Assembly (NCBI RefSeq): GCF_002788215.1
Contig: NZ_CP024845.1
Span: 2,790,001-2,854,000 of the forward strand
DNA: 64,000 bases
Source: Halohasta litchfieldiae
Lineage (GTDB): Archaea; Halobacteriota; Halobacteria; Halobacteriales; Haloferacaceae
Reading direction: 5' to 3'
The translations under genes were made by a program, and so were the position numbers. The notes beneath the pieces were generated by a model, which saw nothing but the letters and a program-made list of their open reading frames with translations, was not told where the DNA came from and searched no databases. Below, in pieces: positions 26,981 to 32,773 of this stretch; positions within the stretch are counted from its first letter, which is position 1; every line of letters starts with the position of its first letter.

Positions 26981-27122
26981 GCCGGTCGGTCGCAGCTTTC
27001 TCTGTTCGCTACCTCGTGAGCGACTGCTGTCACTATCTTCCCGTTGGAGCCGGTGATCCGTGTGAGCCAAGGACAAACCTTTATCTACAGCACGGCATCC
27101 ACTCATTCAAAGAGTTGTGTAT

Positions 27123-28241
27123 ATGGAAACCACAGACCTATCACCGAAAACGATACTCCGAGAGCGTCCCGGGCTCAGTATTGTCGCTCTCGTTGGACTG
27201 CTTTTGTGTGTCGACCTGCTTCTCAAGCTCGCTGGGCTGGGATTCGGGCCGCTCGGCGGGAGCCTCTCGCCCTCGCGGCTCGGGTCGAACCTCTGGAACG
27301 GGCTGGTGATCGGGCTGGTGATCGGGTTGGCCGGGATCGGTCTCTCGATGACCTACAGTATTCTGAACTTCGCGAACTTCTCCCATGGAGATCTCGTGAG
27401 TACCGGTGCGTTCACTGGCTGGGGCGTTGCCTTCGTGATTGCCGCGGTTGGCCGGGCACCCCTCCGCGCGCTGGCGACCGTTCGGGGCGCGGGCGAGACA
27501 ACACCCGGTGAGATCGGAGCGCACATTCTGTCGACACCTCTCGCAATTATTCTCGGGCTGATTGCTGCGTTCTGTCTCACCGCCGCCATCGCACTGGCGC
27601 TCGACCGCGCGTTCTACAAACCGATGCGCGACAGGGGCAGTATCTCGCTGTTGATCGCCTCGGTCGGTGTCGCGCTGGTCGTCCGGTATCTCCTCCAGTT
27701 CGTCTACGGAGCCAGTCGCCGCGGCATCACCGCCAGCGTCGACGGGGATACACTCGTCGGGCCGCTCGGTATCTCAGCGACGGTCCACCAGATAACGATT
27801 GCAGTCGCTGCCGTTGGGCTCATGCTGGCGATGCACTACATGCTCCAGCGGACCAAACTCGGCACGGCGATGCGGGCGATGGCCGACAACAAGGATCTCG
27901 CGTTGATCACCGGGATTCCGGCCGAACGCGTCGTAACCGCGACCTGGATCCTGGGCGGCGGTCTCGCCGGTGCGTCGGGCTATCTCTACGTCCTGTTGCG
28001 CGGAACGATCCAGTTCGACTTCGGCTGGACACTGTTGCTCCTGATTTTCGCAGCAGTCATCCTCGGCGGGATCGGCTCTATCTACGGCGCTATCGCGGGC
28101 GGAATCATCATCGGGATCGTGTTTACGACCTCGACGGTCTGGATCTCGTCGGATTTCAACTCCGCCGCGGCGTTCGCGGTGATGATTCTCGTCCTCCTGC
28201 TTCGTCCTGAGGGACTGTTTGGAGGTGTGTCGACGGCATGA
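27123..28241 (+). CDS. livH: Branched-chain amino acid-type ABC permease, LivH-like
   Basis: A 372-residue permease with about 9-10 transmembrane helices. The family signature IGLSMTYSILNFANFSHGDL (about 75-95) and the C-terminal coupling region RTKLGTAMRAMADNKDLALITG (about 243-264), followed by GIPAERVVTATWILGGGLAG, are both clear. It forms a heterodimer with LivM in the membrane to import branched-chain amino acids or related small molecules such as amides or urea. A 40-residue insertion near residues 105-150 is longer than in bacterial LivH. Its TGA overlaps the LivM ATG. The TATA-like tttatc near 27080 may be its promoter. Confidence 0.92.
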   Translation: METTDLSPKTILRERPGLSIVALVGLLLCVDLLLKLAGLGFGPLGGSLSPSRLGSNLWNGLVIGLVIGLAGIGLSMTYSILNFANFSHGDLVSTGAFTGWGVAFVIAAVGRAPLRALATVRGAGETTPGEIGAHILSTPLAIILGLIAAFCLTAAIALALDRAFYKPMRDRGSISLLIASVGVALVVRYLLQFVYGASRRGITASVDGDTLVGPLGISATVHQITIAVAAVGLMLAMHYMLQRTKLGTAMRAMADNKDLALITGIPAERVVTATWILGGGLAGASGYLYVLLRGTIQFDFGWTLLLLIFAAVILGGIGSIYGAIAGGIIIGIVFTTSTVWISSDFNSAAAFAVMILVLLLRPEGLFGGVSTA

Positions 28242-29587
28242 GCGACGACACAGTGGCGCCGGACGACATGCCCGGCTCGTCGCCCGATAGCACGCCGGAC
28301 AGCGCGCTGGACGCAGTCGTTGAGGCGGCCACCCGGAGCGACCTCGGAATGGTCCTGCTCACGCTGGGGCTCATCTACATCGGCGCGACGCTATTGACGT
28401 TTTCGGACGGATTAAACAGCGTCGTCGGCCTGCTGCGAACGCTGACGTTCCTTGGGTTGGTGTACGCTTTGTCAGCGCTTGCACTCAATCTCCACTGGGG
28501 ATACACCGGGCTGTTCAATATCGGCGTGGCGGGGTTCATGGCCGTCGGCGTCTACACGATGGGGATCTTCGTTCGCTCACCCGACCCTGCGTTCGGGCCG
28601 CCCGGACTCGGACTCCCACTGCCAATCGGCATCATCGCCGGGATGGCGATGGCCTCGCTGTTCGGCCTCGTTGCTGCGTTGCCCGCGCTCCGGCTCAAGG
28701 CAGACTACTTCGCGATTGTCACCCTCGGTATTTCGGAGATCATCCGGCTCACACTCCAGTCGAGTGCGTTCGATACCGCGTTGCGTGAGACGCTGGCTGT
28801 CGGTACCGGCGGCGGCCGCGGGATGGGGATGCCCGACAACCCCGTCCGAGCGCTGTTTCTCGTCGACGGACAGGCCGGGACGCCGACCCCGCTCGGCGAG
28901 TTCGTGTTCGGACTCCTCGGCGAGAGCGGCCTCGGGATCGCGAACAACATCCTGATTGGCTGGGGGTATATCGTCGTGCTTGGGATCTTCCTTGTCGGGT
29001 TTTACGTGCTGCTCGAACGGCTGGGGCGGTCACCGTTCGGCCGTATCCTCAAAGCGATCCGCGAGGACGAACTCGTCGCTGACTCGCTGGGGAAGAACGT
29101 CGACCTCATCAAGATCAAGGTGTTCATGATCGGCTGTGCGCTGATGGGGCTGGCGGGCATCCTCTGGTTCGGCAGTCAGGGCAACGTCTCGCCAACGCCG
29201 CAGTTCGAGCCGATCTTGACGTTCTACATCTTCGTTGCCGTAATCGTCGGTGGGTCGGGGTCGAACACAGGGAGCGTCCTCGGCGGCATCGTCTTCGCGG
29301 CGGTGCTGTTCGAGGGGCCGCGCCGTGTCGGGGCCGTGCTGCGGGATACGATAGACGCGCCGACACCGCCGACGTTCGCCGATGCCGTCCTGTCGTTCGA
29401 TCCGACCAGCATGCTCGCGTTCGCCACCGACAACATCGCCCCGCTCCAGTTCGTCCTGCTCGGACTGGTCCTGATCTTCATTATGCACCGTCGACCACAG
29501 GGACTGCTCGGGGATCGGATCGAAACCGCCGCCGCCATCGACCTCTCTGGTCGGGCTGGCGACCACGGAGGTGAGCGCGATGAGTGA
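28238..29587 (+). CDS. livM: Branched-chain amino acid-type ABC permease, LivM-like
   Basis: A 449-residue permease partner of LivH. An acidic cytoplasmic N-terminus of about 40 residues precedes about 10 transmembrane helices. Signature segments are ALNLHWGYTGLFNIGVAGFM (about 85-104) and the coupling helix RLGRSPFGRILKAIREDELVA (about 262-282). The EAA-like region is followed by KIKVFMIGCALMGLAGILW. It overlaps LivH upstream by 4 bases and LivG downstream by 8, so the four transporter genes form one operon. The C-terminal tail (LSGRAGDHGGERDE) is hydrophilic. Confidence 0.92.
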   Translation: MSDDTVAPDDMPGSSPDSTPDSALDAVVEAATRSDLGMVLLTLGLIYIGATLLTFSDGLNSVVGLLRTLTFLGLVYALSALALNLHWGYTGLFNIGVAGFMAVGVYTMGIFVRSPDPAFGPPGLGLPLPIGIIAGMAMASLFGLVAALPALRLKADYFAIVTLGISEIIRLTLQSSAFDTALRETLAVGTGGGRGMGMPDNPVRALFLVDGQAGTPTPLGEFVFGLLGESGLGIANNILIGWGYIVVLGIFLVGFYVLLERLGRSPFGRILKAIREDELVADSLGKNVDLIKIKVFMIGCALMGLAGILWFGSQGNVSPTPQFEPILTFYIFVAVIVGGSGSNTGSVLGGIVFAAVLFEGPRRVGAVLRDTIDAPTPPTFADAVLSFDPTSMLAFATDNIAPLQFVLLGLVLIFIMHRRPQGLLGDRIETAAAIDLSGRAGDHGGERDE

Positions 29588-30440
29588 GTCGGAGACGGAA
29601 GTCGACGCTGAATCGGGAGAGGCCGAAAGCATGGATTCGCCGGTCGAGCGGGCCGCCCAGCAGACGCCGACCAGCCTCCCGCTGCGCGTTGAAGGCCTCG
29701 CCAAGCAGTTCGGCGGCATCACCGCCGTCGACGGGGTCTCCTTCGAGGTCGAGGCCGGGTCGCTGACCGGCCTGATCGGCCCGAACGGGGCCGGGAAGTC
29801 GACGACGTTCAACTGTATCACCGGTGTTCACGAGCCGACGGCGGGCAACGTCTATCTCAACGGCGAGGAGATCACGGGACTGGCACCGTACGAAATCGCC
29901 CAGCGAGGCCTCGTCCGAACGTTCCAGATCGCACGGGAGCTTTCGGAGATGACGGTGCTCGAAAACCTCATGCTGGCTCCGAAACACCAGCTCGGCGAGT
30001 CGGCGATCCGGTCGGTGCTGCCGGGGCTCCGAGATGATGTTGTCGACCAAGAAGAGGAACTCCGCGAGCGGGCGTGGGAGACGCTCGAATTCTTCGAGAT
30101 CGACCATCTCGCAACCGAGTACGCGGGAACGCTCTCGGGTGGCCAACGAAAACTCCTTGAGATGGCTCGCGTGTTGATGACTGACCCCGAAGTAGTGTTG
30201 CTCGACGAACCGCTCGCCGGGGTCAACCCCACACTCGAAGAGAAACTACTCGACAGGATTCACGACCTGCGGGCGGAGGGATACACCTTCCTCTTTGTCG
30301 AACACGATATGGACGTCATTATGAACAACTGCGAACGGATCATCGTCATGCATCAGGGGCGCGTCCTCGCCGAGGGGACTGCCGAGGACATTCGAAACAA
30401 CGAACAGGTCATTGAGGCCTACCTGGGTGAGGATATATGA
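29580..30440 (+). CDS. livG: ABC transporter ATP-binding protein, LivG-like
   Basis: A 286-residue ATPase with an acidic 30-residue leader. It has Walker A GPNGAGKSTTFNC, a Q-loop in RTFQIARELSEMTVLENLM, the signature LSGGQRKLLEMARVL, Walker B VVLLDEPLAGVNP and the H-loop FLFVEHDMDVIM. The C-terminal HQGRVLAEGTAEDIRNNEQV-type extension and the final VIEAYLG motif are typical of LivG rather than LivF. It pairs with LivF below the permeases to drive import. ATG 29580 or GTG 29571 may be the start; both overlap livM. Confidence 0.92.
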   Translation: MSESETEVDAESGEAESMDSPVERAAQQTPTSLPLRVEGLAKQFGGITAVDGVSFEVEAGSLTGLIGPNGAGKSTTFNCITGVHEPTAGNVYLNGEEITGLAPYEIAQRGLVRTFQIARELSEMTVLENLMLAPKHQLGESAIRSVLPGLRDDVVDQEEELRERAWETLEFFEIDHLATEYAGTLSGGQRKLLEMARVLMTDPEVVLLDEPLAGVNPTLEEKLLDRIHDLRAEGYTFLFVEHDMDVIMNNCERIIVMHQGRVLAEGTAEDIRNNEQVIEAYLGEDI

Positions 30441-31264
30441 GCAACGACACCACCGAACACGGAGCGTCGACCGAATCGACCGAGGCGACTGAATCGGCCG
30501 AAGCCAGCGAATCGACAGCCACGAGCGCGAACGCAAGCAGAGATCACACCCTTGACGGCGAGTCGATGCTCAGCATCCGCGGGCTCGATGCTGGCTACGG
30601 CGATCTCCAGATCCTGACCGACGTCGACCTCGATGTGGCCGACGGCGAGTACGTGACGATTGTCGGCCCAAACGGCGCGGGGAAGTCGACCGTGATGAAG
30701 ACGATCTTCGGACTCACGACCCATATGGACGGCTCCATCGAGTTCGACGGCAACCCCATCCAGACCGAGCCACCCGAAGAGATCATCCACAAGGGAATCG
30801 GCTTCGTCCCCCAGACCGACAACGTGTTTCCGGGACTCAGCGTGCGTGAGAACCTCGAAATGGGGGCCTACATCCTCGATGACGTCCCGGAGGATCGGAT
30901 CGAAGCAGTGTACGACCGGTTTCCGATTCTCCGCGAACGGTCCGAGCAAAAGGCGGGGAACCTCTCGGGCGGCCAGCGACAGATGGTCGCCATGGGTCGA
31001 ACCCTCATGTTGGATCCGGACCTGCTGCTCCTCGACGAGCCGTCTGCCGGGCTTGCCCCCGACCTCGTCGCCGATATGTTCGACCGGATCGACCAGATCA
31101 ACGACTCCGGCACCGCGATTCTGATGGTCGAACAGAACGCCAAGGAGGCACTCCGCCGCTGTGATCGTGGCTACGTGCTGGTCGACGGTGAGAACCGATA
31201 CACCGACCGCGGCGAGACGCTGTTGAGCGACCAACAGGTGCGAAAAGATTTCCTCGGCGGCTAG
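30437..31264 (+). CDS. livF: ABC transporter ATP-binding protein, LivF-like
   Basis: A 275-residue ATPase. A low-complexity acidic leader of about 45 residues (Glu/Ser/Thr/Ala) precedes LSIRGLDAGYGDLQILTDVD. Walker A is GPNGAGKSTVMKT, the signature is LSGGQRQMVAMGRTLM, and Walker B is LLLLDEPSAGLAPDL, the last phrase being characteristic of LivF. It overlaps livG by 4 bases and closes the transporter operon. The cognate binding-protein gene lies next to it in the opposite orientation, ending 30 bases away. Confidence 0.92.
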   Translation: MSNDTTEHGASTESTEATESAEASESTATSANASRDHTLDGESMLSIRGLDAGYGDLQILTDVDLDVADGEYVTIVGPNGAGKSTVMKTIFGLTTHMDGSIEFDGNPIQTEPPEEIIHKGIGFVPQTDNVFPGLSVRENLEMGAYILDDVPEDRIEAVYDRFPILRERSEQKAGNLSGGQRQMVAMGRTLMLDPDLLLLDEPSAGLAPDLVADMFDRIDQINDSGTAILMVEQNAKEALRRCDRGYVLVDGENRYTDRGETLLSDQQVRKDFLGG

Positions 31265-31293: not shown

Positions 31294-32580
31294 TTACTGA
31301 TCGAGTGCGTCAGCCCACTGGCTGGAGTAGGAGGCCTGTTCGGGCTCGAAGGAGACCTGCTGACTAACCGAGCCGCCATCGTCTTCGAAGTTGGTGACGT
31401 ACTCCTCTTCGAGCGCCTGTCCGTAGGCATCGTTGAGGTAGAGCGTACTGGAGGATTCGGCCTCGACGTACTCGCCGCGTGCGAGCCCTGCGAGTGCCGA
31501 CCCCTGCAGCACATCGGAGGGACACGTTCGGAAGATGTAGCCGTTGTCTTCCAGATCGGTCACGTTCGGATCGGTCGACGACGGCGAAATGCCGACGACA
31601 CCGTTCGGAATCAGCACCTGATCGGCCACCTGCAGATTGACGTTCGAGGCGGCGGGGCCGACGACTGCGCCGAAGCCAGCGTTGACCAGCGCGTTCGCCC
31701 CTGAGATGCCTGCCTGGGGATCGGTCTGGGTGTCCTCGACGCGGGTGTTGACACTGACACTGAGGTCGGCGTCGTTGACCTGCGTGGCGGCCAACAGCGC
31801 ACCGTCGCGGATCGGAACCCCGAGCGGCCCGAGGTCGCCCGTTTCGGGCATCAGCACGCCGATCATTGCCTCGAAGGAGTCGACGCCGACTGGATCCTCG
31901 GCGACTGCGTTGTTGTCCTCCTCGGTGAGTTCGGAGCCGAATTCGAGGGTATCGAGCGTGCTCAACTCGCCGTCCTGGAAGTCGGTGACGTCGTAGGCTG
32001 CGGTGACGATATCACCGTTGACATCGAAGTCGGCACTCGACGATGCGCCGACGTAGTGGACTGGATCCCCGCCAGCGACCGTTTCGACGGCGTCGACGAG
32101 CGTTTCGGGGCCGAACTGCTCGCCACCAGGGTTGGCGACTGTGCGAATCCGGTCGCGGATCGCGCTCCCCGTGTTTTCGCCCGCGGCGACGGTCGCGAGG
32201 ATGTTGATCGCCATCGCGTCGTAGGCCTGAGCGGTAAACACGCCCGGCTCTTCGCCATATGCGGCCTGATACTCGCTGGTGAAGAAGTCCGCACCGGGAC
32301 CGCCCGCCGAGGGCTGGGTCCCGATGACGTTGTTCATATCGTTGTCGACCTCTCCGGGCAGATTACTGTCCATCAACCCATCAGGGACGACGATATCGAG
32401 GTCGGGTGTATCGGAGGCGAACTCCGAGTAGAAGTCCCGGAACAGCTGAACTCCCGACTGTGGGAAGCCGACGACCATGACTGCATCCGGAACCGAGCCG
32501 CCACCGCCGCCGCTTCCATCCGAGTCTTCCGAGGTACAGCCAGCCAGTCCTGCGATACTGGCAGCGCCGACACCCTTCAA
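31294..32580 (-). CDS. LivK/J-type substrate-binding lipoprotein, apparently circularly permuted, damaged signal
   Basis: The 428-residue frame runs from TTG 32580. Residues 1-15 (KGVGAASIAGLAGC) are the h-region and lipobox, then a Gly linker. Residues about 31-220 match the C-terminal half of LivK-type type I periplasmic-binding proteins (VMVVGFPQSGVQLFRDFY, GVFTAQAYDAMAINILA, HYVGASSSADFDVNGD). Residues about 237-428 match the N-terminal half (IGVLMPETGDLGPLGVPIRD, GFGAVVGPAASNVN, YGQALEEEYV), ending in SSQWADALDQ. Normal proteins have the opposite order. Upstream an ATG at 32610 starts MNRNI, then TAG (32593-32595), then RRDVLKGVG; the stop cuts the twin-arginine motif from its start codon. 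It would otherwise feed the adjacent LivHMGF transporter. Either a functional permutant with an odd start or a decaying gene. Confidence 0.75.
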   Translation of the reverse strand: MKGVGAASIAGLAGCTSEDSDGSGGGGGSVPDAVMVVGFPQSGVQLFRDFYSEFASDTPDLDIVVPDGLMDSNLPGEVDNDMNNVIGTQPSAGGPGADFFTSEYQAAYGEEPGVFTAQAYDAMAINILATVAAGENTGSAIRDRIRTVANPGGEQFGPETLVDAVETVAGGDPVHYVGASSSADFDVNGDIVTAAYDVTDFQDGELSTLDTLEFGSELTEEDNNAVAEDPVGVDSFEAMIGVLMPETGDLGPLGVPIRDGALLAATQVNDADLSVSVNTRVEDTQTDPQAGISGANALVNAGFGAVVGPAASNVNLQVADQVLIPNGVVGISPSSTDPNVTDLEDNGYIFRTCPSDVLQGSALAGLARGEYVEAESSSTLYLNDAYGQALEEEYVTNFEDDGGSVSQQVSFEPEQASYSSQWADALDQ

Positions 32581-32610
32581 TACATCACGCCGCTAAATAT
32601 TTCGATTCAT

Positions 32611-32773
32611 ATGATAAGCATTACCATAGGTATTTATAAATATATATCGATTCACTACACTGGGTTACGCAAATAAATGAGACGTGTGAAACGTGATATC
32701 GGAGTTGTCCCACGGACAGTACTCGACCTCGCAGATGCCGGTTAGTAGCCATCTGACTTCGATCCGTGGGTCG
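32611..32773. promoter_or_regulatory. AT-rich promoter region of binding-protein gene
   Basis: Very AT-rich DNA (several tatttata-like boxes at 32630-32650) directly upstream of the binding-protein leader, suitable for its minus-strand promoter. A 22-codon plus-strand frame (32677..32745, MRRVKRDIGVVPRTVLDLAD...) is present but too short to trust. Confidence 0.4.

Follow-up and report, generated by a model that had tools for sequence, protein, structure and literature searches.

A naturally circularly permuted LivK-type binding protein in haloarchaea, with probable independent origins and a probably silent copy in Halohasta litchfieldiae

The window, the 64,000-nt stretch of the Halohasta litchfieldiae genome analysed here (NZ_CP024845.1, positions 2,790,001 to 2,854,000), carries on its minus strand the gene of a LivK-type (Peripla_BP_6, type I) substrate-binding protein whose halves are encoded in swapped order: positions 31297-32490 specify the C-terminal half and then the N-terminal half. 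The explanation that we hold with good confidence is that this is a naturally permuted, lipid-anchored binding protein of a hydrophobic-amino-acid-type (LivK/HAAT) ABC importer, that the permutation probably had independent origins and that the present copy is probably silent. The features concerned are the following.

27117..28241, plus strand: livH permease (BPD_transp_2; Pfam)
28238..29587, plus strand: livM permease (BPD_transp_2; Pfam)
29571..30440, plus strand: livG ATPase (ABC_tran and BCA_ABC_TP_C; Pfam)
30437..31264, plus strand: livF ATPase (ABC_tran; Pfam), its 3' end facing the 3' end of the binding-protein gene
31294..31296, minus strand: stop codon TAA
31297..31863, minus strand: N-terminal LivK half, placed last (IGVLMPETGD...SSQWADALDQ; Peripla_BP_6 4-187; 3td9 13-202)
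31864..31938, minus strand: acidic 25-residue linker GSELTEEDNNAVAEDPVGVDSFEAM, bridging the former C and N termini
31939..32490, minus strand: C-terminal LivK half, placed first (PDAVMVVGF...DTLEF; Peripla_BP_6 219-312; 3td9 204-328)
32491..32535, minus strand: Gly/Ser-rich tether TSEDSDGSGGGGGSV (from sequence; AF2 pLDDT below 50 for mature residues 1-13)
32536..32592, minus strand: rest of the Tat/lipobox signal RRDVLKGVGAASIAGLAGC, with the twin arginines at 32592-32587 and the lipobox Cys at 32538-32536
32593..32610, minus strand: ancestral start ATG (32610) and four codons, then an in-frame TAG at 32595-32593 (MNRNI*)
32631..32640, minus strand: TATA-like box TTTATAAATA, about 21-30 nt 5' of the ATG (upstream regions compared by eye)

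The protein matches the Peripla_BP_6 profile with a score of 96.8 bits (gathering cut-off, 31.7) but is not colinear with it. In a Pfam profile search, residues 240-426 of the ORF corresponded to profile positions 4-187; when each half was searched by itself, the first matched positions 219-312 (E 4.8e-6) and the last positions 4-187 (E 1.2e-20), so that 219-312 comes ahead of 4-187. Alignment of a profile of the permuted homologues to the solved LivK structure 3td9 placed the last half on residues 13-202 and the first half on residues 204-328. Orthologues of normal order align to the window protein as two adjoining pieces in swapped order, and the junction is exact: standard orthologues read ...YSPQLGDALDE-DPDTLMVVGFPQSG..., and the permuted proteins start with PDAVMVVGFPQSG and end with YSSQWADALDQ-stop at precisely that point. 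As judged from these comparisons, the window protein is a permuted variant of the LivK/Peripla_BP_6 family and not a standard member.

The gene and a complete livHMGF operon converge, 3' end to 3' end. The same arrangement, with the binding-protein gene facing the livF end of a livH-M-G-F operon, holds for most loci, permuted or standard, whose flanks are long enough. Because permuted and standard copies share this convergent livF-G-M-H synteny, the rearrangement most likely took place in situ. Circular permutation of the two halves, which the earlier note had read from the letters, is thus borne out by the half-by-half Pfam searches and the 3td9 alignment, and these together with synteny uphold its view of a type I (LivK) protein that was permuted in nature and lies next to a complete livHMGF set. 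The acidic linker that it had placed at about residues 221-236 does exist, although at 25 residues it is slightly longer than claimed. A second, distant Liv locus in the same genome (G000:C1:2369148) has a standard-order binding protein. Note that several Haladaptatus loci (L081, L082, L087, L094 and L101) carry a tandem pair of permuted binding-protein genes per livFGMH set.

Apart from the odd order of the halves, nothing favors an assembly error, or a tandem gene pair rearranged in this genome alone, and we consider the probability of either negligible: more than 100 genomes, which many laboratories assembled independently, have the identical order at 45-85% identity and over the full length, a recurrence that also excludes chance. 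In a set of 60 genomes comprising its own and those of relatives, the window protein had a full-length colinear match in 21 (46-100% identity), and in many of the others the same two halves were adjacent in standard order. The earlier note had expected such a permutant to be rare; it is instead the majority form in the taxonomic family of the window's organism, with a permuted copy in 110 of 170 genomes and a high-scoring standard copy in 45 of the 170. A scan of named genomes located 80 permuted loci, in Halorubrum, Haloarcula, Haloferax, Haloquadratum, Halobellus, Haladaptatus, Halorussus, Actinarchaeum and others, and in a phylum-wide sample the permuted matches were confined to the window's taxonomic order. 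In other species the corresponding locus is taken by orthologues of standard order. Our literature search returned no earlier report of a permuted binding protein in haloarchaea and no proteomics of this gene. Within the genus, the locus is variable, since, of the two genomes G002 and G003, one holds no more than a standard-order fragment, at the end of a contig, and the other is without a close homologue.

The cut falls at 3td9 residues 202/204, in a loop between a helix (residues 405-411 of the modelled chain) and a strand (residues 19-23), and one and the same loop is used in all permuted clades. Homology to 3td9, together with secondary-structure prediction, sets the cut in the middle of lobe 2, between helix and strand; the lobe itself we take from established knowledge of the LivJ fold and not from coordinates. 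This position and the predicted strand order rule out a break at the crossover between the lobes, or hinge, as first suggested. The suggestion that the permuted chain could fold fared better: an AlphaFold (AF2) model computed from 46 permuted sequences predicts a well-formed fold (mean pLDDT 87.5, pTM 0.85). The best Foldseek hit in the PDB was LivK 3td9, with about 193 residues aligned sequentially, and such a limited run of columns in order is what is expected of a permutant.

The permuted chain would form the usual two-lobe flytrap, which may bind a small amino-acid-like ligand and hand it to LivHM, powered by LivGF; the sole mechanical change would be a membrane tether on lobe 2 instead of lobe 1. 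Thermotoga maritima LivK (3td9), of the LivK/LivJ (HAAT) family, resembles the window protein in family, in two-lobe fold and in the alignment of both halves, and LivK/LivJ-type systems have livHMGF partner genes, as does this locus. In contrast to standard LivK, the window protein has swapped halves, termini and tether on lobe 2, and a linker that joins the old termini.

Among type I binding proteins, the literature search yielded a single other natural permutant, TpMglB-2 (Tp0684) of Treponema pallidum, a lipid-tethered type I/cluster B protein classed as 'Type Ic / Cluster Bc' and present in many species, in which the first strands of the N-lobe have moved to the C terminus and the strand order of the C-lobe is intact (PMC4990184). 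Both proteins are natural circular permutants of a type I fold; however, TpMglB-2 belongs to the sugar-binding MglB family and to the bacterial side of the domains of life, and its N-lobe cut differs from the lobe 2 cut and swapped halves found here. The haloarchaeal case is unusual for its probable recurrence and for the presence of permuted and standard orthologues at one locus.

To place the permuted proteins, binding-protein trees were built with both halves returned to standard order. Four permuted groups, named once the first tree had been seen, lie amid standard ones: A (Haloferax-type and relatives), B (Halorubrum/Halohasta, including the window), C (Haloarcula) and D (Actinarchaeum). 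The tree requires four changes of order, a single permuted clade appears in none of 200 bootstrap trees, and group B joins eight standard-order rows at 100/100; each half analyzed separately gives the same four groups and the same four changes. Approximately unbiased (AU) tests on the binding protein rejected a single clade of all permuted copies (p = 0.014 and 0.009), as well as B+D (p = 0.008) and A+B (p = 0.0285 with the nearest standard-order copies added; 0.0795 on a thin 42-row set). They did not reject B+C (p = 0.106), A+C (p = 0.081) or A+D (p = 0.111).

The linked livHMGF genes, which are themselves free of permutation, gave the same picture more strongly, with three groups (A, B and C+D) and AU p values of 1.5e-10 for all permuted loci together, 5e-69 for A+B, 1.6e-4 for B+CD and 0.0015 for A+CD. 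Clade-B-like permuted copies (77-78% identity) occur in another family of the same order, in Natronomonas sp. LN261 (locus L053), G387 and G446; L053 falls within the Halorubrum/Halohasta clade by binding protein and by liv genes alike, so that transfer of the whole locus is probable.

As distant outgroups have the standard order, permutation is read as the derived state, and since a single permuted clade is rejected, the change of order probably took place two or more times, with three or four events possible; an independent origin is probable in the Halorubrum/Halohasta clade and in at least one further haloarchaeal clade. The alternative is a single ancient permutation, in an ancestor that held both copies, followed by losses in individual lineages, with the tree blurred by gene conversion or transfer. 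The identical cut loop in all permuted copies is in its favor, as are genomes that hold both forms (G016, G054, G117, G125, G165 and G191) and an S-PG-S-DR linker motif common to groups A and D, whose joint clade is among those that stood. Against it, both halves separately and the livHMGF genes group clade B with standard-order copies, none of the full tests is compatible with a single permuted clade, and the linkers, which across permuted copies join the old termini by about 25-35 residues, are kept within each clade, that of group B not being alignable with those of the others. We therefore regard a single origin as unlikely. Recurrent permutation being preferred, the stronger form of it, namely three or more independent events that each affected the same lobe 2 loop and genomic locus, in separate haloarchaeal lineages, strikes us as an even call; if true, it would imply selection for lobe 2 tethering or for folding order in lipoprotein binding proteins at high salt.

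Each such event would likely have proceeded by tandem duplication, in-frame fusion and trimming at both ends. Duplication and trimming have been invoked for circularly permuted DNA methyltransferases and swaposin (PMC3320104), and it is from this general model that the route is drawn here, since among 566 pairs of ORF halves no duplicated or partly trimmed intermediate was found; the haloarchaeal case also differs in having a single cut site. A 924-residue frame at homologue L019, considered as a tandem intermediate, proved to be merely an open upstream frame.

Among closely related species, the same locus holds permuted orthologues in some and standard ones in others, and the partner transporter genes serve as an independent clock. 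The repeatability of circular permutation can therefore be tested, and so can the reason for the constant choice of loop and any effect on docking or capture of a tether on the other lobe. Ordinary annotation does not see the permuted order, as profile searches ignore order.

The start region of the window gene reads ATG AAT CGA AAT ATT TAG CGG CGT GAT, the TAG being codon 6, just 5' of the twin-arginine motif. By contrast, most clade B relatives begin M-T-R-R-I-Q-R-R-D-V-L-K, with mostly CAG (Gln) at the TAG site and CAT (His), CAA (Gln) or CGA (Arg) in the remainder; among the relatives checked, TAG is found only in the window's genome. A TTATAA-like box is recognizable by eye upstream of nearly all clade B genes, and its clade-wide position, some 20-35 nt 5' of the ATG, marks ATG 32610 as the native start. 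The twin arginines and lipobox Cys are present in nearly all relatives, and in the window the TAG lies ahead of the arginines. Contrary to the earlier note, which overlooked the TAG, the signal peptide is not intact, because this stop separates ATG 32610 from the rest of the frame; likewise, the open frame of about 1.29 kb holds for 32592 to 31297 (minus strand, ending at TAA 31296-31294) but does not extend from ATG 32610.

The window gene is probably silent or weakly expressed, owing to a sense-to-TAG change (or a sequencing error) at codon 6. Suppression by pyrrolysine was rejected, as a search of the window's genome found no pyrrolysyl-tRNA synthetase (PylS) above the cut-off (weak hits below it occurred also in 13 of 14 control genomes). 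Compatible with our preferred explanation, and in our judgment somewhat likely, is that the permuted family is functional in general but has a dead pseudogene here: the TAG precedes the twin arginines with a conserved TATA box and ATG 5' of it, no known suppression is available, and the gene of a further Halorubrum-group genome is disrupted by a transposase-like insertion. On the other side, the gene has no further stop or frameshift, and a sequencing error may account for the TAG or translation may restart in frame at TTG 32580, which would drop the twin arginines. Moreover, the gene body compared with Halohasta salina indicates purifying selection (dN 0.088, dS 0.64, dN/dS about 0.14), and amino-acid changes are no more numerous on the window branch (24) than on that of H. 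salina (27), so that the stop is either recent or a sequence error.

Broken copies were seen in other genomes. At locus L197 (6076-8364, genome G151) a transposase-like ORF interrupts the permuted gene some 292 residues into the mature protein, a remnant of the gene lying downstream, and in genome G016 a standard-order paralogue (L145, G016:C1:79357-80460) is split into two frames, the same genome also having an intact permuted copy and another standard one.
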